From Thioploca sp. (lineage in GTDB: Bacteria > Pseudomonadota > Gammaproteobacteria > Beggiatoales > Beggiatoaceae), in the NCBI GenBank assembly GCA_030627235.1, contig DAOUSL010000005.1:1-59988 (forward strand): 59,988 bases of DNA, given 5' to 3'. Positions 2,477-31,306 of the stretch are shown here, in pieces. A program made the position numbers and the translations under genes. Position 1 is the first letter of the stretch, and every line of letters starts with the position of its first letter. The notes beneath the pieces were generated by a model. The model was not told the DNA's origin. It made no database searches and saw only the letters and a program-made list of their open reading frames with translations.

Positions 2477-3771
2477 ATACTGCCAATCTAGCTTTACAAC
2501 AAACTCCACCCTTATCAGTTCCAATCCGGTTTTTTATAACTGCACCATTATTTGGTATTTTAGCAAGTTTATTGTTAATTTATATTGGTCCAGATATATT
2601 TAGTAGTCGCTGGGGATTAAACATATTAGCCTTGACTCATCTATTTACATTAGGCTTTGTCAGCATGATAATGTTTGGAGCAATATTGCAATTACTACCA
2701 GTGGTAGCTGGAACTATTATTCCTAAACCAGTTTTAACCAGTTCGATAATCCATATTTTACTTACTGTTGGTAGTTTAAGTTTAACAAGTGGTTTTATAT
2801 TTGGACAGGACTTTTTATTGCGTATTGCTATTGTATTATTAGGCTTAAGTTTTTTTAGTTTCGTCGCCATTGTAGGATATTGTTTGATACAAGTCAAGGG
2901 TAATATCATTATTGGAATGCGGTTAGCACTGCTTGCACTTTTAATAACAGCTGGATTAGGGATTGGATTAGTAGTCAGATTTGCTTACGGAATAACTTTA
3001 CCTTTAGCAATGATCTTGGCTAATATTCATCTCACTTGGGGTTTAGTCGGTTGGGTTGGTTTGTTAATTATAGCAATTGCTTATCAAGTAGTACCAATGT
3101 TTCAAATAACTCCTCAATATAATACTAAATTAATGCGTTGGTTAATACCAATATTATTTCTAGTTTTATTATTATGGACATTAGCTTATCTTTGGTTAGA
3201 AAACAATAAGTTAGTTGGTTGGATAAGTATTTTGATTGGGTTAGGGTTAGCAGTATTTGGTGCTAAGACATTACATTTGCAAATTAAACGACTTAGAAAG
3301 ATACCAGATGTCACTCTTAATTTCTGGCGAGTAGGTGCTGTGGGATTATTACTAAGCATTATATTATGGATTACTGGTATTATCTGGACAGAATTAGCTA
3401 ATCAACCATTTTATCCATTATTATTATTTATTTTATTTGTTGGTGGCTTTGTATTAATGGTAATTCAAGGAATGTTATATAAAATCGTGCCATTTTTAGT
3501 GTGGTTGCATCTGCAAAATCAGCAATTAAACCCATTAAGAACTGTTAATATGATAAGAATTCCCCATATGAAACAAATAATTTCACCAAAATCAGCTCAA
3601 CGCCAATTTTGGGTTTATTTGATTGCTTTATTCTGTAGCATATTGACTTTACAATTTCCAAATTTAATTTATCTAACTGGAATTATATTATTAGTTGCAT
3701 TTATCTTATTAGAATATAACTTATTGAAAGCTTTAAAATTATATCGTTCAGTATTAATTTCTATTCAATGA
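2473..3771 (+). CDS. Polytopic NnrS / haem-copper oxidase subunit I-like membrane protein
   Basis: The 432-residue protein is almost entirely hydrophobic, with about twelve predicted membrane helices. Histidines sit in conserved-looking helix contexts: LTHLFTLGFVSMIMFGA (H56), NIHLTWGLVGWVG, and MLYKIVPFLVWLHL near residue 345. This pattern is shared by NnrS-type and haem-copper-oxidase-like proteins encoded with hemerythrin and DUF2249 genes. I infer haem binding in the inner membrane and a role in nitric-oxide handling. The exact family needs a profile search. It is the third gene of the operon and overlaps the DUF2249 stop by four bases. Confidence 0.7.
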   Translation: MNTANLALQQTPPLSVPIRFFITAPLFGILASLLLIYIGPDIFSSRWGLNILALTHLFTLGFVSMIMFGAILQLLPVVAGTIIPKPVLTSSIIHILLTVGSLSLTSGFIFGQDFLLRIAIVLLGLSFFSFVAIVGYCLIQVKGNIIIGMRLALLALLITAGLGIGLVVRFAYGITLPLAMILANIHLTWGLVGWVGLLIIAIAYQVVPMFQITPQYNTKLMRWLIPILFLVLLLWTLAYLWLENNKLVGWISILIGLGLAVFGAKTLHLQIKRLRKIPDVTLNFWRVGAVGLLLSIILWITGIIWTELANQPFYPLLLFILFVGGFVLMVIQGMLYKIVPFLVWLHLQNQQLNPLRTVNMIRIPHMKQIISPKSAQRQFWVYLIALFCSILTLQFPNLIYLTGIILLVAFILLEYNLLKALKLYRSVLISIQ

Positions 3772-3774
3772 ATT

Positions 3775-4599
3775 TTAATTTCTAACGATTAACACGGCAC
3801 TTTCTGCTAATCTTATTACCTTTTCCGACACACTGCCAAGCCAAAAATTTTTGAAACTAGTGTGTCCGTGATTACCAACTACAATTAAATCACAATTAAG
3901 ATTTTTTGCAGTTTCTATAATAGTTTCAGCATATTTACCAACAATTACTTGCCCAGTTACTTTGATACCTTCAGTTTTTAAAATATCACAAATTTTAGTA
4001 ATTCCAGCTTCCGTATTATCTTTGCTAAATTCTATCTGACTATGAACTACGGTTATTACTGTAACTGGAGCGGCAAAATGTTTAGCTACTTTAGCGGTAA
4101 CTTTAGCTACATTTATCTCGTTATAGCCAATGCCATCCACTGCTAATAAGATATGTTTTCCCTCAACTTTTGCGGTTCTAGGAACTACTAGCACACTACA
4201 ATGAACATGATTTATCACTTCAGCAGTGCGACTACCAAGTAATAATTTCAGCAGACCTTTTTTACCACGTCGACCAACCACAATTAAATCAATATTATGT
4301 TCCTTAGCAGTTGTGACTATTTCTGGATAAATATATTCACTATGACGCAAGATTGTGTAACTTTTTATTCCAGCACTATCAGCATTATTTTGGACTAAAT
4401 TCATGCAATTGATAGCATCTTGTTCAGCCTGCTTTACTAATTTTGGAGCTAGTGTATCATATTCAGGATTACTTAAAACTACTGACATAATACATATATC
4501 ACTACCACAAGTTTTCGCAAAGTTTATCACCTCACGCTCTGCACCAACTATATATTCTGAGCCATCAGTTGCTAATAAAATTTTTGGGAATATTGCCAT
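3775..4599 (-). CDS. Tandem-domain universal stress protein
   Basis: The 274-residue protein contains two UspA domains, about 2-141 and 148-274. Each carries the ATP-binding G-x2-G-x9-G-(S/T) motif: G109, G112 and G122-S123 in the first, G242, G245 and G255-S256 in the second. That indicates the ATP-binding type of UspA and a self-contained pseudo-dimer in the cytoplasm. The gene converges on the NnrS-like gene with only three bases between the stops. Tandem UspA genes often sit beside anaerobic or nitrogen-oxide genes, but no direct link is shown here. Confidence 0.9.
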   Translation of the reverse strand: MAIFPKILLATDGSEYIVGAEREVINFAKTCGSDICIMSVVLSNPEYDTLAPKLVKQAEQDAINCMNLVQNNADSAGIKSYTILRHSEYIYPEIVTTAKEHNIDLIVVGRRGKKGLLKLLLGSRTAEVINHVHCSVLVVPRTAKVEGKHILLAVDGIGYNEINVAKVTAKVAKHFAAPVTVITVVHSQIEFSKDNTEAGITKICDILKTEGIKVTGQVIVGKYAETIIETAKNLNCDLIVVGNHGHTSFKNFWLGSVSEKVIRLAESAVLIVRN

Positions 4600-4675: not shown

Positions 4676-5632
4676 TTATCCAATTATAAACGTTCTTTTA
4701 TCTAGTTTAGGAAAATCTTTTACATTACTGTTTTTATTATCATATTCAATATATACTCCAGCAATATTACCAACTTTAATATTAAATGGTGGAATACCTT
4801 CTAATAATAATATTTCATTAATATTACCAATTCCCTGGTATAATTTTTTCCCTTCTTGATCAATAATCATAATCCATGCTTTTTCTGTAAAATGAACTTG
4901 TAAAGATTTATATAGATCAAGTGCTTTTGTCTCAATAGGTGTTTCCATTGCAACAATAGTATTTTGATCTTTAATAGTTATTTCTACTTCAGCAGGTTCG
5001 ATAGGAGCAACTATTTTTTGAACTGTTGGCATAATGGTAGGCATAATAATATTAGATTCAGTCATGCCTTCCATAGTTTGAGTTTTAACTTCACTAGGAG
5101 ACCATATCTTTTCAAGTGACTGAGAACCTGATTTAAAATGCCAATTTAAAACCATTAAGAATATAATTATAATAAATATTCCAATGACAGATAATGAAAT
5201 ATTTTTATCAGAATTATCAGAATTATTCAAATAAGGAATTAAATATGGTTTTAATTTAGGTTTTATCGGAGAAAGTGTTGGCTGTTTATCTATCATGGTA
5301 TCAAATGATTCCATTATATCTTCTGGTGGAATATCTTGTAATTTCGCATAGTTGCGTAGATAACCACGGACAAATACATTCGGTAATTCATCATATTTAT
5401 CACTTTCAAGAACTCTAATCATACTTGTTTCTAAAAAAAGTTTTTTTGCAGTGGCTTTGACTGACATCCCACTTTTTTCACGTGCTTCACGTAAAATAGT
5501 GCTAGGGGGAATGATATTTTTTTGTGAAATTTCATGATTATATTTGTTATCATTAGAAGAAACTTTATTTTCAATATCTAATATATTATATTCTTCTATA
5601 TCATTGTATTTAAGTTGTATTTCTTGATTCAT
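4676..5632 (-). CDS. rodZ: RodZ cytoskeletal regulator
   Basis: The 318-residue protein has the RodZ architecture. A Cro/CI-type helix-turn-helix domain lies at about 44-110 (LREAREKSGMSVKATAKKL and FVRGYLRNYAKL). One membrane helix lies at about 146-163 (SLSVIGIFIIIIFLMVLNW). A linker follows, then a C-terminal periplasmic beta domain (DUF4115, from about 245) with WIMIIDQEGKKLYQG. RodZ anchors MreB filaments for rod-shape growth. The C-terminal domain is complete. No MreB or IspG gene is adjacent, although rodZ-ispG linkage is common in related bacteria. Confidence 0.88.
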   Translation of the reverse strand: MNQEIQLKYNDIEEYNILDIENKVSSNDNKYNHEISQKNIIPPSTILREAREKSGMSVKATAKKLFLETSMIRVLESDKYDELPNVFVRGYLRNYAKLQDIPPEDIMESFDTMIDKQPTLSPIKPKLKPYLIPYLNNSDNSDKNISLSVIGIFIIIIFLMVLNWHFKSGSQSLEKIWSPSEVKTQTMEGMTESNIIMPTIMPTVQKIVAPIEPAEVEITIKDQNTIVAMETPIETKALDLYKSLQVHFTEKAWIMIIDQEGKKLYQGIGNINEILLLEGIPPFNIKVGNIAGVYIEYDNKNSNVKDFPKLDKRTFIIG

Positions 5633-23787: not shown

Positions 23788-26634
23788 ATGATAGCACATT
23801 TCCTAGGTAATTTATTCTCTATAAAACCTAATGAACGGGATGGAGTATTTTATTTCTTCCTAGTTTTATTAATTTTTTCCTTTGGTGCAAGTTTTGCCCG
23901 TAGTATTGGTATGACATTGTTGGTAGGTGAAATGGGTGGTAAAACTTTACCTTTAATGTTTGTATTCATAGATTTATCTGTGATGTTAGGTTCACCAATC
24001 TATGCTCATTATACCAAAAAATCTAGTGGTCTTGTAATTTTAGGTTTTTTTTTATTAGCAACAGCTGTATTTTCAATACTTGCACAATTATTATTTATTA
24101 TAAAAGATATTTGGTGGGCAGAACAAGATTGGGTATACGGATTATTTTTTGTTGGTTTTTTCTTCTTTTATATTCTAATTAATATTCACATCAGTAGCTT
24201 TGTTGCTTCCTATTTTACCGCAGTCCAAGTCAAACGAGTAACCCCCATTATTAATGCTGGCTTTCCTATTGGAGGAGCTTTGGGAGGTAGTACTTTGCTA
24301 GTATTATTAAGTGTATTTCATATCCAGCCACAAAATCTAGTCGCAATATTAGGTGTATCTTGTATAGGTTCCTATTGGTTATTAAGAGTAATTAATGCTC
24401 GATTTAGCCCAGTGCGAGTAGGAAGTTTGCAATCAAGTTCATCTCAGTCAAAAAGTCCATTAAGCGAATCGTTGATAGCTTTTAAATATATTATTGGCTC
24501 TAAACTAATGATTTATATGTCATTAGGCTTAGTTTTATTTGTTATAGCAAGTAAAGTATTAGAATATCATTATCAAACGATCATTTATTATGAGATTTTT
24601 CAAGATTCTACTCAACGTGCTAAATTTTTTGCTACTTATGAAGTATTTGCTAATTTAGCTTGGTTATTTATTCAGCTATTTCTAACTTCACGCATTATAA
24701 TGAAATTGGGAGTTGGTGCTAGTAATGTGCTTTATCCAATATTAGCAACAATAATGTCTTTGGCTTTATTCATATTTTTCTACCAAATAGATACTCCATT
24801 ATCTGAAAATTTTACGATCATGTTGATGTTAGGAATTCTAACCCAGTTTGTAAATCAAGAAATGCGTGGTGCTTTAAGAACCCCAGTAAATAATTTGCTC
24901 TTTAATGCGATTCCTCCTAATCAATGGGGAGTAAATAAAGCATTCCTTAATGGTATTATATTTCCAGTATCAACAGTAACAGTGGGAATTTTTTTGATGT
25001 TAATTACTGGTGACACTAATACTTCAATATTGCAATCTTTGTTTCCCAAAGAAAACTTACATTATTTATTACCATTAGTTGCTCTTGTTGTTTCATTATT
25101 AGGAATCTTAGCTGCTTTACCACAATGGTCTGCTTATAATAAAGGAGTATTTGGCCTACTTAATCGAGAATTATTTAGTCGTCAAACTGATGTAAAATTA
25201 AGTGGTTGGAGTAATAATAGCTTAAAACAAGTAATAGAACAAAAATTAAGTAGTGTTGATCCTTATCATGTAGTTGCAGCCTTAGAAATGATTAGGGTAT
25301 TAAGGTTAAGTTATTTTATCAGTCAAGTAGGAGATTTGTTACTTAAAACCCAAGTATTTAAAATCAAAGAACATTGTATTAATACACTAGCAGCGTTACC
25401 ACAATCAAACACTAGTGTAAATTATTTGGTTGAAGCTCTGCAAACAGAAAAAGATGCTGTGGTTCTACCACTAATTTTAAAAAATTTGGCTAAATTTCAA
25501 TTAGTTGATTTTAATGATACGATAGAAAAGTTATTGACACATAAAAATACTCAAGTTTTTGTGGAAGCTTGCTTATGTTTACATAAACATCCTAATTATA
25601 AGCATAAAGACTCTATTGAAAGAAGAATTTTAGCTCGTTTACAACGTAATAATGAATCAAAAGATATTGCTCTTTATTTGTATGCCTTAGGAAAATTACG
25701 TCATTCTTATTACAGCAGTAAGGTGTTGCCATTTTTAGATAATAATAATAATAAAGTTCGTTTAGCTGCATTTACTGCTTTTATTCATATGCTAGAAGGT
25801 CAGCTTGAACCGCATAAGGAATTATTGATCAAAGCTTTGAATTCAACAGATAAGGATATGAAAACTGCGGCCTTACGAGCTCTAAAAGAATGTCAATCTT
25901 TAGATGATTGGTCTCCCATCATAGAACTTTTAGGTGCTAGAGATCGTACTTTAGTTTCTGAAAGCAAAGAATTATTGCGTTTAAGTTTGGGTACTTGTAA
26001 GACAGCATTAACAAGTTATGTATTTTCTGATAAAATATCAGTGCAACAAAGATTTGAAATATTATCCCTAATTTATTCAAAATTAAATCCAGAACAACAT
26101 AAACTGTTACAACAAAGAGCTGACGAATCTTTAAAAAAATTTGTCCAAATAAATGGTTTATTAAAATTACATGAATCATTAGGCTATAATAGTAAAACAC
26201 ATGATTTAATTGCGAAAATTTTGCAAGAAATAGCTGAAGAACATTTACAACATATTATAACAATTATAACATTTGCTTCTGATCAAAATATTGAGTTTTT
26301 TCAAAGAGTTAGTAGAGGAGTGTTATCGTTAAGTCGAGCTAATCAAGGTAATGCTTTGGAAGTATTGTCGAATGCTAAAGAAAAATATCTAGTATCAAGA
26401 TTACTTAAATATTTTGAGGAACGCTTAACTGATATAAAATCAGTTGGTCGTATTTATTTAGCTTTATTTGGTGAGACGCATAAATTAAGTAAAAACAATT
26501 ACGAATATTTATTAAAAATTTTAGATAATGATATGATTGATGCTTGTTTGCTATATCTAGTTAAAGAAGGTAATAATAACGTGGATTTAAAAAATTCTCG
26601 GACAAAAGTACGTGAATTAATGACCGAAGTTTAA
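23788..26634 (+). CDS. NTT/MFS-like membrane protein fused to HEAT repeats
   Basis: The 948-residue protein has about 12 hydrophobic helices in its first 440 residues (for example FYFFLVLLIFSFGASFARS and INAGFPIGGALGGSTLLVL). This layout resembles the ATP:ADP antiporter (NTT/TlcC) and related MFS-like families. The second half, about 440-948, is soluble and made of helical HEAT-like repeats (VRLAAFTAFIHMLE, MKTAALRALKECQSL). Free-living bacteria carry such NTT-HEAT fusions, whose substrates are mostly unknown; classical NTTs are found in obligate intracellular bacteria. It follows a cNMP-binding gene closely. Confidence 0.7.
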   Translation: MIAHFLGNLFSIKPNERDGVFYFFLVLLIFSFGASFARSIGMTLLVGEMGGKTLPLMFVFIDLSVMLGSPIYAHYTKKSSGLVILGFFLLATAVFSILAQLLFIIKDIWWAEQDWVYGLFFVGFFFFYILINIHISSFVASYFTAVQVKRVTPIINAGFPIGGALGGSTLLVLLSVFHIQPQNLVAILGVSCIGSYWLLRVINARFSPVRVGSLQSSSSQSKSPLSESLIAFKYIIGSKLMIYMSLGLVLFVIASKVLEYHYQTIIYYEIFQDSTQRAKFFATYEVFANLAWLFIQLFLTSRIIMKLGVGASNVLYPILATIMSLALFIFFYQIDTPLSENFTIMLMLGILTQFVNQEMRGALRTPVNNLLFNAIPPNQWGVNKAFLNGIIFPVSTVTVGIFLMLITGDTNTSILQSLFPKENLHYLLPLVALVVSLLGILAALPQWSAYNKGVFGLLNRELFSRQTDVKLSGWSNNSLKQVIEQKLSSVDPYHVVAALEMIRVLRLSYFISQVGDLLLKTQVFKIKEHCINTLAALPQSNTSVNYLVEALQTEKDAVVLPLILKNLAKFQLVDFNDTIEKLLTHKNTQVFVEACLCLHKHPNYKHKDSIERRILARLQRNNESKDIALYLYALGKLRHSYYSSKVLPFLDNNNNKVRLAAFTAFIHMLEGQLEPHKELLIKALNSTDKDMKTAALRALKECQSLDDWSPIIELLGARDRTLVSESKELLRLSLGTCKTALTSYVFSDKISVQQRFEILSLIYSKLNPEQHKLLQQRADESLKKFVQINGLLKLHESLGYNSKTHDLIAKILQEIAEEHLQHIITIITFASDQNIEFFQRVSRGVLSLSRANQGNALEVLSNAKEKYLVSRLLKYFEERLTDIKSVGRIYLALFGETHKLSKNNYEYLLKILDNDMIDACLLYLVKEGNNNVDLKNSRTKVRELMTEV

Positions 26635-27681: not shown

Positions 27682-27709
27682 TTGACATATTAACTATATT
27701 TGATACAAT
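27682..27709 (+). promoter_or_regulatory. Sigma-70 promoter of the tRNA operon
   Basis: TTGACA (27682-27687) and TACAAT (27704-27709) are separated by 16 bases, about 24 bases before tRNA-Gly. The fit is strong, with a perfect -35. Confidence 0.75.
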
Positions 27710-27732: not shown

Positions 27733-27808
<76 letters not shown>

Positions 27809-27810
27809 AT

Positions 27811-27881
27811 GGCTGAATGGCAGAATGGCTATGCAGCGGTTTGCAAAACCGTCTATGTCGGTTCAATTCCGGCTTCAGCCT
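27811..27881 (+). tRNA. tRNA-Cys (GCA)
   Basis: The cloverleaf has acceptor GGCTGAA/TTCAGCC, anticodon loop TTGCAAA and discriminator T73. Unlike its two neighbours the CCA end is not encoded, so it depends on the CCA-adding enzyme. It is two bases downstream of tRNA-Gly. Confidence 0.95.
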
Positions 27882-27890
27882 TTTTATTTA

Positions 27891-28253
27891 GCCCGGGTGG
27901 CGGAATTTGGTAGACGCAAGGGACTTAAAGAAAATTTGAGCACCTAAGGCGAAATCCTTTTGTGAATGGAGTCTAATTCGGTGAAACCTGTAAAATGGCA
28001 ATGCCGAGCTAAGTTTAATTCAGTTATTTAAAGAAAGTATTTCTTTAGATATTTATTACTGAAGTTAAAAAAGTGTAGAGGCCATACGGTTCCTACCTGA
28101 ATAAGTTTTTCTATATTTGAAAAATTTAAAGGTAAAGACATGGTCCAGACCACAAACATATTTCTAATAAAAATATGGCAGTGAAAACTGTAGTTGGTAA
28201 GAAAATCCCTCGATGGCAACATCGTGCCGGTTCGAGTCCGGCCTCGGGTACCA
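27891..28253 (+). tRNA. tRNA-Leu (UAA) split by a group I intron
   Basis: Exon 1 is 27891-27926, ending in the first anticodon base (GGGACTT). Exon 2 is 28202-28253, starting AAAATCCCT and ending in CCA. Joined, they give an 88-base class II tRNA. Its acceptor is GCCCGGG/CTCGGGT, its anticodon stem AGGGA/TCCCT, its loop contains TAA, its long variable arm is CGATG/CATCG and its T stem is GCCGG/CCGGC. The third position in the Gly-Cys-Leu operon is where E. coli has its tRNA-Leu(UAA) gene, so the gene itself is native and the intron is the addition. Confidence 0.93.
27927..28201 (+). ncRNA. Group I self-splicing intron in tRNA-Leu(UAA)
   Basis: The 275-base insert sits between U34 and A35 of the anticodon, the position used by cyanobacterial and plastid tRNA-Leu introns, and ends in the expected G (28201). 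Core elements are in order: P-like AATTCGGTGAAACCTG (27975-27990), Q-like GCAATGCCGAGCTAA (27998-28012), R-like GTGTAGAGGCCATACGG (28073-28089) and S-like AAGACATGGTCC (28135-28146). R and S can form P7 (GCCAT with ATGGT). A short guide GAG in TTTGAGCAC (near 27938) pairs with the exon end CTT through the usual U-G at the splice site. No homing endonuclease frame is present. Confidence 0.9.
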
Positions 28254-28309
28254 CCATATATTTCCTCGAATTATAATTGGATTCGGCAAACTATTTGATA
28301 GAATCTGAG

Positions 28310-29941
28310 ATGTACATAACACATTTTGGCCTAAATGCCGTTCCATTCTCTATAACACCTGACCCACACTATCTGTATTTAAGTGTACGCCATCGTGAAG
28401 CTTTAGCACATCTATTATATGGTGTGAAGGAAGGCTCTGGGTTTGTACTACTAACAGGTGAAGTTGGTACTGGTAAAACGACACTTTGTCGTAGTCTAAT
28501 TGAGCAATTGCCAGAAACTGTTGATATCGCTCTATTACTTAATCCACGTCTTACATCTATAGAATTACTCAAAGCATTATTTGATGAGCTTAAAATTAGC
28601 TATGAAAATAATTTTGTTGAAAAAGATTTTATAGATATTCTCAGTAGCTATTTATTAACAGCTCATTCAGTAGGTCGTCGTACTGTCTTTATCTTGGATG
28701 AGGCTCAAAGCCTTACTCCAGACGTTTTGGAACAAGTAAGATTATTAACTAATTTAGAAACTGCTAATCATAAATTACTCCAAATAATTTTAGTCGGTCA
28801 ACCAGAATTAAATACTCTTCTTAAACGCAATAATTTACGTCAACTATCTCAACGAATTACTGCTCGTTATCATTTATTACCCCTATCTTCTAAAGATACT
28901 CAAGCTTATATAAATCACCGTCTAGCAATTAGTGGAGCTAAAAATCCTATATTTGTTAATGCTGCTATGCGTTTGGTATATCGTTATTCTGGTGGAATAC
29001 CTCGTTTGATTAATGTGATATGTGATCGATCTTTATTAGGTGGTTATGTTGGTAATGAAAATAAGATAAATTCCCGTATTGTCCGTAAGGCAGTAAAAGA
29101 AGTTCGTGGGGAGAATATTAATAGGAATTATCATTTTTTAAGTATACTTCTAACTGTTTTCTTTTTGACTGCATCAATGCTGTGGCTTTATCCAAAAGCT
29201 GAAATTTTGTGGACAAGATATTTTAATAATGAAATAATTATAACAGCTCAACCAGAAAAAATATCTCAGATTAATCAGGTTGTTAATGATGAACCAATAT
29301 TGTCATTATCAGAACCTATTTTGCCTGATCCAATACCAATTATAAAACTAGAAGAATTGTTACTTAAAACAAATACTGAATCGGCTTTTATAACATTATT
29401 TAGTTTTTGGGATTTAGATTACAATAGTCTTACTGGTGAAAAAGCTTGTCAACGAGCGGCAACTAAAAAATTAGCTTGTTTGCTTAGAACTGGAAATTGG
29501 CAAGAATTGCGAGAAGTTAATCGGCCAGCAGTTATTGAATTAGTAACGAATGATGGTGGTCAACATCATTTAGTAGTAACCAAATTAAAAGATGATATTG
29601 CCACTGTAGCAATAGTTGGAGAAACTTATGAATTTTCGATTACTGAAATTAATAAATATTGGCTAGGTCAATTTTTGCTGTTATGGCAACCACCATTATT
29701 ACCAATACCAATTTTGAAAATAGGTTTATCTAATAATGCGGTAATTTGGATACGGAAACATTTAGATATCATTGAAGGAATAAGTAGTAATTCATATTCT
29801 CCACGTTTTGATTATGCTTTAAGAACAAGAATTATAGCTTTTCAGCGTCAGCAGAAACTTGATGCGGATGGGATTGTTGGAGAACAAACTATGCTAGTTA
29901 TACAGGCGTTAGCTAAAGTAGGGCCTTTGCTAATTGAGTAA
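28310..29941 (+). CDS. exeA: ExeA/GspA-type ATPase with peptidoglycan-binding domain
   Basis: The protein (543 residues from the ATG at 28310, chosen over an upstream TTG at 28277 that nearly touches the tRNA) begins with the ExeA signature ITHFGLNAVPFSITPDPHYL. Walker A is GEVGTGKT (50-57) and Walker B is TVFILDEAQ. A membrane helix follows the ATPase domain (FLSILLTVFFLTASMLWL). A C39-peptidase-like domain comes next, and then a C-terminal PG_binding_1 domain with QQKLDADGIVGEQT. In Aeromonas ExeA works with ExeB to assemble the type II secretin through peptidoglycan. No gspB is adjacent. Confidence 0.88.
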   Translation: MYITHFGLNAVPFSITPDPHYLYLSVRHREALAHLLYGVKEGSGFVLLTGEVGTGKTTLCRSLIEQLPETVDIALLLNPRLTSIELLKALFDELKISYENNFVEKDFIDILSSYLLTAHSVGRRTVFILDEAQSLTPDVLEQVRLLTNLETANHKLLQIILVGQPELNTLLKRNNLRQLSQRITARYHLLPLSSKDTQAYINHRLAISGAKNPIFVNAAMRLVYRYSGGIPRLINVICDRSLLGGYVGNENKINSRIVRKAVKEVRGENINRNYHFLSILLTVFFLTASMLWLYPKAEILWTRYFNNEIIITAQPEKISQINQVVNDEPILSLSEPILPDPIPIIKLEELLLKTNTESAFITLFSFWDLDYNSLTGEKACQRAATKKLACLLRTGNWQELREVNRPAVIELVTNDGGQHHLVVTKLKDDIATVAIVGETYEFSITEINKYWLGQFLLLWQPPLLPIPILKIGLSNNAVIWIRKHLDIIEGISSNSYSPRFDYALRTRIIAFQRQQKLDADGIVGEQTMLVIQALAKVGPLLIE

Positions 29942-29993: not shown

Positions 29994-30416
29994 TTATAAA
30001 CTAATTGCAGAATACCATTTTGAACCAAACAGACCACCTTCTTTAGCTTTCCAGCCATTAGTTTCCATCATCTGTTTTAAACGTTTTTTAAGTTCATGAT
30101 CTGGAATTTTACCTTTACTATGAGTTTTAAATACTGACGCAGCATTTTCAAACTCTTTTTTATCTACTTTACCATCATTATTAGCAAAAGCTTCCAATAC
30201 ATCCTTAGCCCGATCTTCAGCATCTCGTTCTAAAACTAAGTTTTTTTCAGAAGCAGCTTGCCGTATAATAGACAAACCTTCCTCTACTCCCATACCTTTT
30301 TTTATCCCTTCTTCAAGGATTTTCTTTTCTTCTTTACGGTCAATATATTGATCATCAAAAACTTGTAACATGATGTAATCAATAAACTGTTTTTTTACTT
30401 CTTCTGAAACTGCCAT
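29994..30416 (-). CDS. Small EF-hand-like protein, tandem paralogue 1
   Basis: This 140-residue soluble, highly charged, helical protein belongs to a set of three tandem paralogues. Shared features are DDQYIDRKEEKKILEEG near residue 21, a second acidic motif NNDGKVDKKEFENA near 94, and the C-terminal GLFGSKWY. The NDGKVDKKEF stretch fits an EF-hand-type calcium loop; a TerB-like fold is another possibility. I know no assigned function. It is the last of the three genes on the minus strand. Confidence 0.65.
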   Translation of the reverse strand: MAVSEEVKKQFIDYIMLQVFDDQYIDRKEEKKILEEGIKKGMGVEEGLSIIRQAASEKNLVLERDAEDRAKDVLEAFANNDGKVDKKEFENAASVFKTHSKGKIPDHELKKRLKQMMETNGWKAKEGGLFGSKWYSAISL

Positions 30417-30469
30417 AATAACCTCAAATAATTAATGTAACCAGCCCGTTATACCTGGATACCAAAATT

Positions 30470-30874
30470 TTAAATAGTTGTATACCACTTAATTCCAAAC
30501 AAGCCACCGGCTTTCCAGCCATTAGTTTCCATCATTTGCTTCAAACGCTGTTTTATTTCTTGATCAGGAACTTTACCTTTACAAGCAGTTTTAAAAATAT
30601 TAAAAGCCTCTTCAAATTCTTTCTTGGTTATTTTACCATCTGTAACTGCTTTTTCAAGCACAGCTTTAGTTTTATCTTCGATATCTCGTTCGATTACTAA
30701 GCCTTTTTCTTCTGCTATTTCATGAATAAGAGTAAGAGTATCTTCCACACTAATATTGTTTTTTACTCCAACCTCAAGAATTCGTTTCTCTTCTTGCCGA
30801 TCAATATACTTATCATCAAATCCTTGCAATGTGATAAACTCAACAAACTGGTTACGAATACTTTCTGAAACCAT
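30470..30874 (-). CDS. Small EF-hand-like protein, tandem paralogue 2
   Basis: This 134-residue paralogue of its two neighbours carries the same DDKYIDRQEEKRILEVG motif and a GLFGIKWY end. The central acidic motif is shorter (VTDGKITKKEFEEA), with fewer acidic side chains than an ideal EF-hand loop. The KGKVPDQEIKQRLKQMMETN segment is nearly the same as in paralogue 1, pointing to recent duplication between these two. Function unknown. Confidence 0.65.
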   Translation of the reverse strand: MVSESIRNQFVEFITLQGFDDKYIDRQEEKRILEVGVKNNISVEDTLTLIHEIAEEKGLVIERDIEDKTKAVLEKAVTDGKITKKEFEEAFNIFKTACKGKVPDQEIKQRLKQMMETNGWKAGGLFGIKWYTTI

Positions 30875-30889
30875 ATTTATACCCCTTAA

Positions 30890-31306
30890 TTAAATTTCTG
30901 AAAACCATTTTGAACCAAATAATCCACCTTCTTTTACTTTCCAACAATTATCTAATATTATTGTTTTAACTAGTTTTTTAATTTCTGGTTCAGGTATTTT
31001 ATTTTTAGAAGTTGATCTGAACAGAATTAATGCAGTCTCAAATGCTTTTTTATTAATATTACCATCATTAATAATAAATTGTTCTAAAAATTCTTTAGTA
31101 CGTTCTTCTATATCTCTTTCAATTACAAAATCTTTTGAGTAGGCAACCTCACGTATAATAGCAAGCCCTTCGTCGACACTAATGCCTTTTTTAATTCCTT
31201 CCTCAAGAATTCTTTTTTCTTCTTGTCGATCAATATATTGGTCATCAAAAACCTGTAACATAATAAACTCGACCAACTGTTTTTTAGCCATCTCTGATAT
31301 TGCCAT
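30890..31306 (-). CDS. Small EF-hand-like protein, tandem paralogue 3
   Basis: This is the 138-residue, first-transcribed and most diverged member of the triplet. It keeps DDQYIDRQEEKRILEEG and GLFGSKWFSEI, while the central motif reads INDGNINKKAFETA and the following helix has lost the GWK tryptophan pattern (NCWKVKEGG). It starts 68 bases downstream of the membrane-TPR gene on the same strand and may be co-transcribed with it. Confidence 0.65.
   Translation of the reverse strand: MAISEMAKKQLVEFIMLQVFDDQYIDRQEEKRILEEGIKKGISVDEGLAIIREVAYSKDFVIERDIEERTKEFLEQFIINDGNINKKAFETALILFRSTSKNKIPEPEIKKLVKTIILDNCWKVKEGGLFGSKWFSEI

Follow-up and report, generated by a model that had tools for sequence, protein, structure and literature searches.

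A group I intron in the anticodon loop of tRNA-Leu(UAA) of Thioploca sp. and its relatives in Pseudomonadota and phages

The closest described counterparts of the intron analysed here are those of BOGUAY (Ca. Maribeggiatoa) and Bud S10 (Ca. Thiomargarita nelsonii), in each of which tRNA-Leu-TAA and tRNA-Arg-TCT are interrupted by putative group I introns (PMC4853749, which for BOGUAY credits MacGregor et al. 2013); that publication gives neither structure nor subgroup for them. The window, i.e. the whole analysed stretch of 59,988 nucleotides from Thioploca sp. (contig DAOUSL010000005.1), contains an intron in the same gene and in the same bacterial group. Set beside the BOGUAY and Bud S10 introns by description only, it is in all likelihood orthologous to them; it is therefore not new to the Beggiatoaceae, and its mechanism is ordinary.

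Two better characterized systems lie further away. The trnL(UAA) intron of Anabaena self-splices in vitro; introns of this type share with the window intron the site after U34, a similar 5' end (AAA...TTGAGC) and the terminal G, but differ from it in the P4/P5 sequence (TTCGGTGAAACC in the window, CTCAGGGAAACC in Anabaena). The introns in tRNA-Ile(CAU) of Azoarcus and tRNA-Arg(CCU) of Agrobacterium belong to group IC3. These have the core motifs AAATTCGGYGAAACC, GGCAAYGCCGAG and GTGTAGAGAC in common with the window intron, but sit in other tRNAs and use another splice-site pairing. The core motifs of the window intron resemble those of the Azoarcus IC3 intron in a comparison with one Azoarcus sequence, and membership in IC3 is at most tentative. 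In the trees the Azoarcus intron falls inside the same large group as the window intron.

The features of the locus are as follows.

27682-27709, plus strand: putative sigma-70-like promoter of the tRNA operon, from sequence reading (TTGACA at 27682-27687, 16-nt spacer, TACAAT at 27704-27709)
27733-27808, plus strand: tRNA-Gly(GCC), first gene of the operon (ARAGORN; RF00005, 69.9 bits)
27811-27881, plus strand: tRNA-Cys(GCA), second gene of the operon (ARAGORN; RF00005, 59.0 bits)
27891-27926, plus strand: 5' exon of tRNA-Leu(UAA), with U34 at its end (in silico splicing to an 88-nt tRNA-Leu(taa))
27927-28201, plus strand: group I intron of 275 nt without a homing endonuclease ORF (RF00028, covariation, ORF list)
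28202-28253, plus strand: 3' exon of tRNA-Leu(UAA), with A35 at its start (in silico splicing)
28277-29941, plus strand: downstream gene for an ExeA-type ATPase with a peptidoglycan-binding domain (AAA_22 and PG_binding_1)

A sequence-only reading of the locus had proposed an intron of 275 nt between U34 and A35, and these coordinates hold to the base. Its assignment to group I was borne out by a strong covariance-model match to RF00028 at 27917-28167 (65.8 bits, E 1.7e-14, whole model covered; gathering cut-off 50 bits), the only RF00028 match in the whole genome (4.58 Mb, 98.9% complete). Joining the exons in silico reproduced the predicted 88-nt product, a normal tRNA-Leu with the anticodon TAA, and the folding energy of the gene was 5.4 standard deviations below that of 100 dinucleotide shuffles. 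ARAGORN found tRNA-Gly and tRNA-Cys upstream and missed the split tRNA-Leu gene; genomes searched with such tRNA finders therefore appear to be without tRNA-Leu(UAA). No endonuclease frame was found in 27927-28201, where the ORF list held a 64-aa frame and part of a 60-aa antisense frame. The intron-encoded homing endonuclease that marks a mobile intron is thus missing from the window copy; four gammaproteobacterial relatives and phages have one.

The upstream tRNA-Gly and tRNA-Cys agree with the earlier description of a native host tRNA in a Gly-Cys-Leu operon. A TTGACA box similar to that of the window is present upstream in two congeners (L298 and L394). The ExeA-type gene also follows tRNA-Leu at six other loci (L297, L298, L307, L322, L394 and L395), and three intronless loci (G001, G014 and G007) are flanked by the same gene as their intron-bearing congeners. 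Eight of the nine fetched intronless loci lie in the Gly-Cys-Leu operon, the ninth being Cys-Leu near a contig end. The intronless alleles L319, L321 and L322 likewise lie in this operon; the exception, L320, adjoins Leu(CAA). Intronless alleles from the same genus, or from genera with both states, read GGGACTTAAAATCCC at the insertion place, which confirms the insertion point between U34 and A35. A chimaeric assembly of the window was considered and ruled out, because congeners have the same intron, operon and flanking gene. Elsewhere in the window, the minus strand at 29994-31306 encodes three paralogues of 134-140 aa in tandem (the one tested had no Pfam match), and 23788-26634 encodes a 948-aa protein that combines a transporter-like membrane part with a C-terminal half containing HEAT repeats, located behind a small cyclic-nucleotide-binding-like protein.

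Leu(UAA) introns had been regarded in the sequence-only reading as cyanobacterial or plastid only. This view does not stand, given that Beggiatoaceae introns are published (PMC4853749) and that the site is also occupied in other Pseudomonadota, in many phages and in no fewer than 11 families of Gammaproteobacteria. Among 369 sampled Gammaproteobacteria genomes, 15 from 11 families carry an intron at the same tRNA-Leu(UAA) site, as do nine Pseudomonadota genomes outside this class; they were detected with a pattern that spans the exon and P4 and whose reversed control gave no matches in the Gammaproteobacteria set and one outside the class. Because exact patterns miss variants, these counts are lower bounds. 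The betaproteobacterial MAGs with the intron carry the names Dechloromonas, Azonexus and Rhodocyclales. The spread of this one insertion through so many gammaproteobacterial families, through other Pseudomonadota with Betaproteobacteria among them, and into phages is new to us. Group I introns were also observed at six loci in other tRNAs of relatives, among them Arg(CCU) in one genome (G013) and probable Ile(CAU) in three (G007, G040 and G036); further tRNAs that are probably split are Asp in G035 and Lys in G046. Two family genomes have a group I intron match within an apparent iscU/nifU gene.

A BLAST match to huge phages prompted searches of IMG/VR with two patterns, which gave 103 and 16 contigs. 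The exons were joined in silico to a tRNA-Leu(taa) in 98 of these IMG/VR contigs and in the huge phages LR756501 (735 kb) and LR756511 (595 kb). As IMG/VR consists of predictions, single contigs in it may be non-viral; the isolate Agrobacterium phage Atu_ph07, with an unannotated intron of 278 nt at the same site, is a certain case. In one viral contig (L175) a baseplate gene lies close to tRNA genes for Ile, Met and Leu, the last of them with the intron; cyanophage S-TIM5 has the same Ile-Met-Leu order with an intronless Leu gene, the exons matching at 96.6%. Many BLAST matches to cyanophages were rejected as intron copies, as only the exons matched. A first viral pattern (at least 120 contigs) was not counted; its spacing fits intronless Leu genes too, and no contig fetched with it passed the intron test. 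The marine phage KT997847 was seen to have two RF00028 matches, at 2947-3127 and 3656-3836, adjoining pieces annotated as capsid.

Long phage copies contain an HNH ORF (that of LR756511, for example), and one (L221) a LAGLIDADG ORF; an HNH ORF is also found inside long gammaproteobacterial Leu introns (L326, L327, L331 and L333). The phage HNH passes the Pfam cut-off for PF01844, the family of the HNH homing endonucleases of phage introns, and the bacterial HNH was recognised by 52% identity to a phage one. Homing of copies with an HNH or LAGLIDADG endonuclease into Leu(UAA) genes that lack the intron is to be expected; this link rests on other members of the intron family, the window intron having no HNH ORF. 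A search of the open literature found no report of phage tRNA-Leu introns, and according to a 2014 review all phage introns known by then were in protein genes (PMC3984707). Phages may be a reservoir or vector of the tRNA-Leu intron. That phage Leu(UAA) genes commonly carry it, and that phages as both reservoir and vector seeded the introns of Proteobacteria, the ancestor of the window intron included, is a tenable proposal to which we would give slightly less than even chances.

Intron trees were computed with 86 and 77 introns over about 206 columns, and many of their forks are open. The window intron clusters with those of its congeners (100/99), the family introns cluster with one phage copy (99/98, with long branches dropped), and this group in turn joins the introns of other Gammaproteobacteria and those of a few phages (87/89). 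Phage introns are scattered in the trees, requiring 9 to 11 changes, and the Arg(CCU) intron of G013 pairs with a phage Leu intron (97/88).

Within the Beggiatoaceae, 22 of 42 genomes have the intron-bearing gene, 13 have an intronless allele and none has both forms; with the two search patterns used, neither form was found in the other seven, several of which are incomplete. On an rpoB tree of 34 genomes the presence of the intron requires at least seven state changes, including changes within three genera. The distances of intron and host are weakly correlated (Spearman 0.32), a value reached in 58 of 5000 permutations, and on the strength of this correlation descent in the family seems to be largely vertical and to include several losses. 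For the window copy, inheritance from an ancestor within the Beggiatoaceae is most likely. The earlier notion of a likely acquired intron stands in so far as the intron comes and goes in the family, but not for the divergence of the intron, which tracks that of the host weakly yet above chance. In several family genomes (L359-L369 and L383-L393) rpoB itself has extra in-frame stretches, with open frames of 1490-2115 aa, which are probably inteins.

The state changes on the rpoB tree could also reflect repeated recent homing from phage or other bacterial donors, which would then explain most of the presence in the family in place of an early gain followed by losses; the scatter of phage introns among bacterial ones fits this explanation, as does a Hydrogenophilaceae MAG contig (L041, JACAEC010000061). 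At 5133-5260 this contig breaks off 127 nt into an intron that is 98.4% identical to that of a Beggiatoaceae genome (L317, G006), behind a betaproteobacterial-looking exon; exon and flanks differ from the Beggiatoaceae counterpart. However, with its end inside the intron L041 could represent either a transfer or an assembly chimaera, the introns of one genus or of sister genera cluster, intron and host distances correlate, and losses fit the same counts. Repeated homing is thus regarded as doubtful, at perhaps one chance in a few, and early gain with mainly vertical descent is preferred.

For an origin of the intron in cyanobacteria, whose tRNA-Leu(UAA) intron occupies the identical insertion site, speaks evidence, reported for other elements, that Beggiatoaceae and cyanobacteria have exchanged genetic material (PMC4679880); moreover, an AU test did not reject the family introns and Anabaena as one clade (p 0.395, with one Anabaena sequence). 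On the other hand, the family's introns are most closely related to other introns of Gammaproteobacteria and phages, and in the best trees the Anabaena intron branches outside every Leu intron from proteobacteria and phages (99/95); this placement and the P4/P5 difference given above both depend on a single Anabaena sequence and weigh little. Two patterns for cyanobacterial-type Leu introns, run over viral contigs, gave one false match and then none, and a search for intron matches in plasmids and phages gave none. These comparisons decide neither for nor against a cyanobacterial origin; acquisition from cyanobacteria is considered unlikely.

The fold was assessed in an alignment of 27 Leu introns with their anticodon-stem flanks from the family, other Gammaproteobacteria, other Pseudomonadota and Betaproteobacteria, counting P1 to P9 with P7 as a pseudoknot with P3. 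Its elements in the window are listed below.

27924-27940, plus strand: P1, exon CUU with internal guide sequence GAG; the U-G splice pair at 27926 is present in 27 of 27 introns
27968-28093, plus strand: P3 (27968-27973 with 28088-28093), compensatory changes in four of five pairs
27977-28008, plus strand: P4 (UUCGGU with GCCGAG) around P5
28009-28073, plus strand: P6, one pair being U-A in 20 and C-G in 6 of 27 introns
28080-28145, plus strand: P7, the guanosine-binding helix, in pseudoknot with P3; paired in 100% of cells, compensatory changes in two of four pairs
28095-28133, plus strand: P8
28157-28190, plus strand: P9 with a terminal GAAA hairpin (28179-28190), compensatory changes in all seven counted pairs
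28201, plus strand: terminal G of the intron, invariant in the 27 introns

Over 41 pairs in 27 introns, 96.6% of the 1107 cells pair, a percentage that leans toward the window copy, on which the structure was drawn by hand; double (compensatory) changes, which lean less, were counted at 24 of the 41 core pairs, the P3/P7 pseudoknot included. None of 500 shuffles equalled the observed covariation, and sliding the partners by one to three columns lowered the pairing to 27-47%. The splice pair, the terminal G and the P7 pairing, all noticed earlier in the single sequence, thereby recur throughout the alignment. That the window intron is degenerate and non-splicing, UUA being read by another tRNA, is highly improbable: in the window copy P2 has two positions without a partner and P3 and P7 include G-U pairs, which points that way, but every catalytic helix is retained with compensatory change, the copies of congeners are just as intact, the tRNA exons are intact, and a search of the genome, 98.9% complete, yielded no Leu(UAA) gene free of the intron.

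The genome thus appears to have no UUA reader other than the intron-bearing gene. UUA makes up 60% of the 1601 leucine codons in 31 long ORFs of the window; from this share and the sole detected reader we infer that splicing is required and takes place in vivo, and loss of splicing should be severe. Splicing and its chemistry are inferred from the intron family. Gly, Cys and Leu would be made as a single precursor transcript, in which the intron would fold and a guanosine bound in P7 would attack after U34 at the U-G pair of P1; the released 5' exon would then attack after the terminal G, rejoining the anticodon loop as CUUAAAA. Taken together, the locus is interpreted with high confidence as a functional group I ribozyme intron without an endonuclease, in the only UUA-tRNA gene detected and belonging to an intron family of Gammaproteobacteria, other Pseudomonadota and phages, which was probably present early in the Beggiatoaceae and has descended mostly vertically, with loss or exchange on several occasions.

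Taken alone, the window intron merely adds a copy to a feature known in the Beggiatoaceae; it is the wider survey that shifts the view. Introns occupy the anticodon of tRNA-Leu(UAA) across Pseudomonadota and in many phages, beyond cyanobacteria and plastids, and this broader distribution, together with the phage copies, is the part worth pursuing. Phage tRNA introns with endonucleases would offer a tangible way in which tRNA introns could spread, and the pairs of intron-bearing and intronless genomes within single genera make gain, loss and dependence on splicing directly testable.
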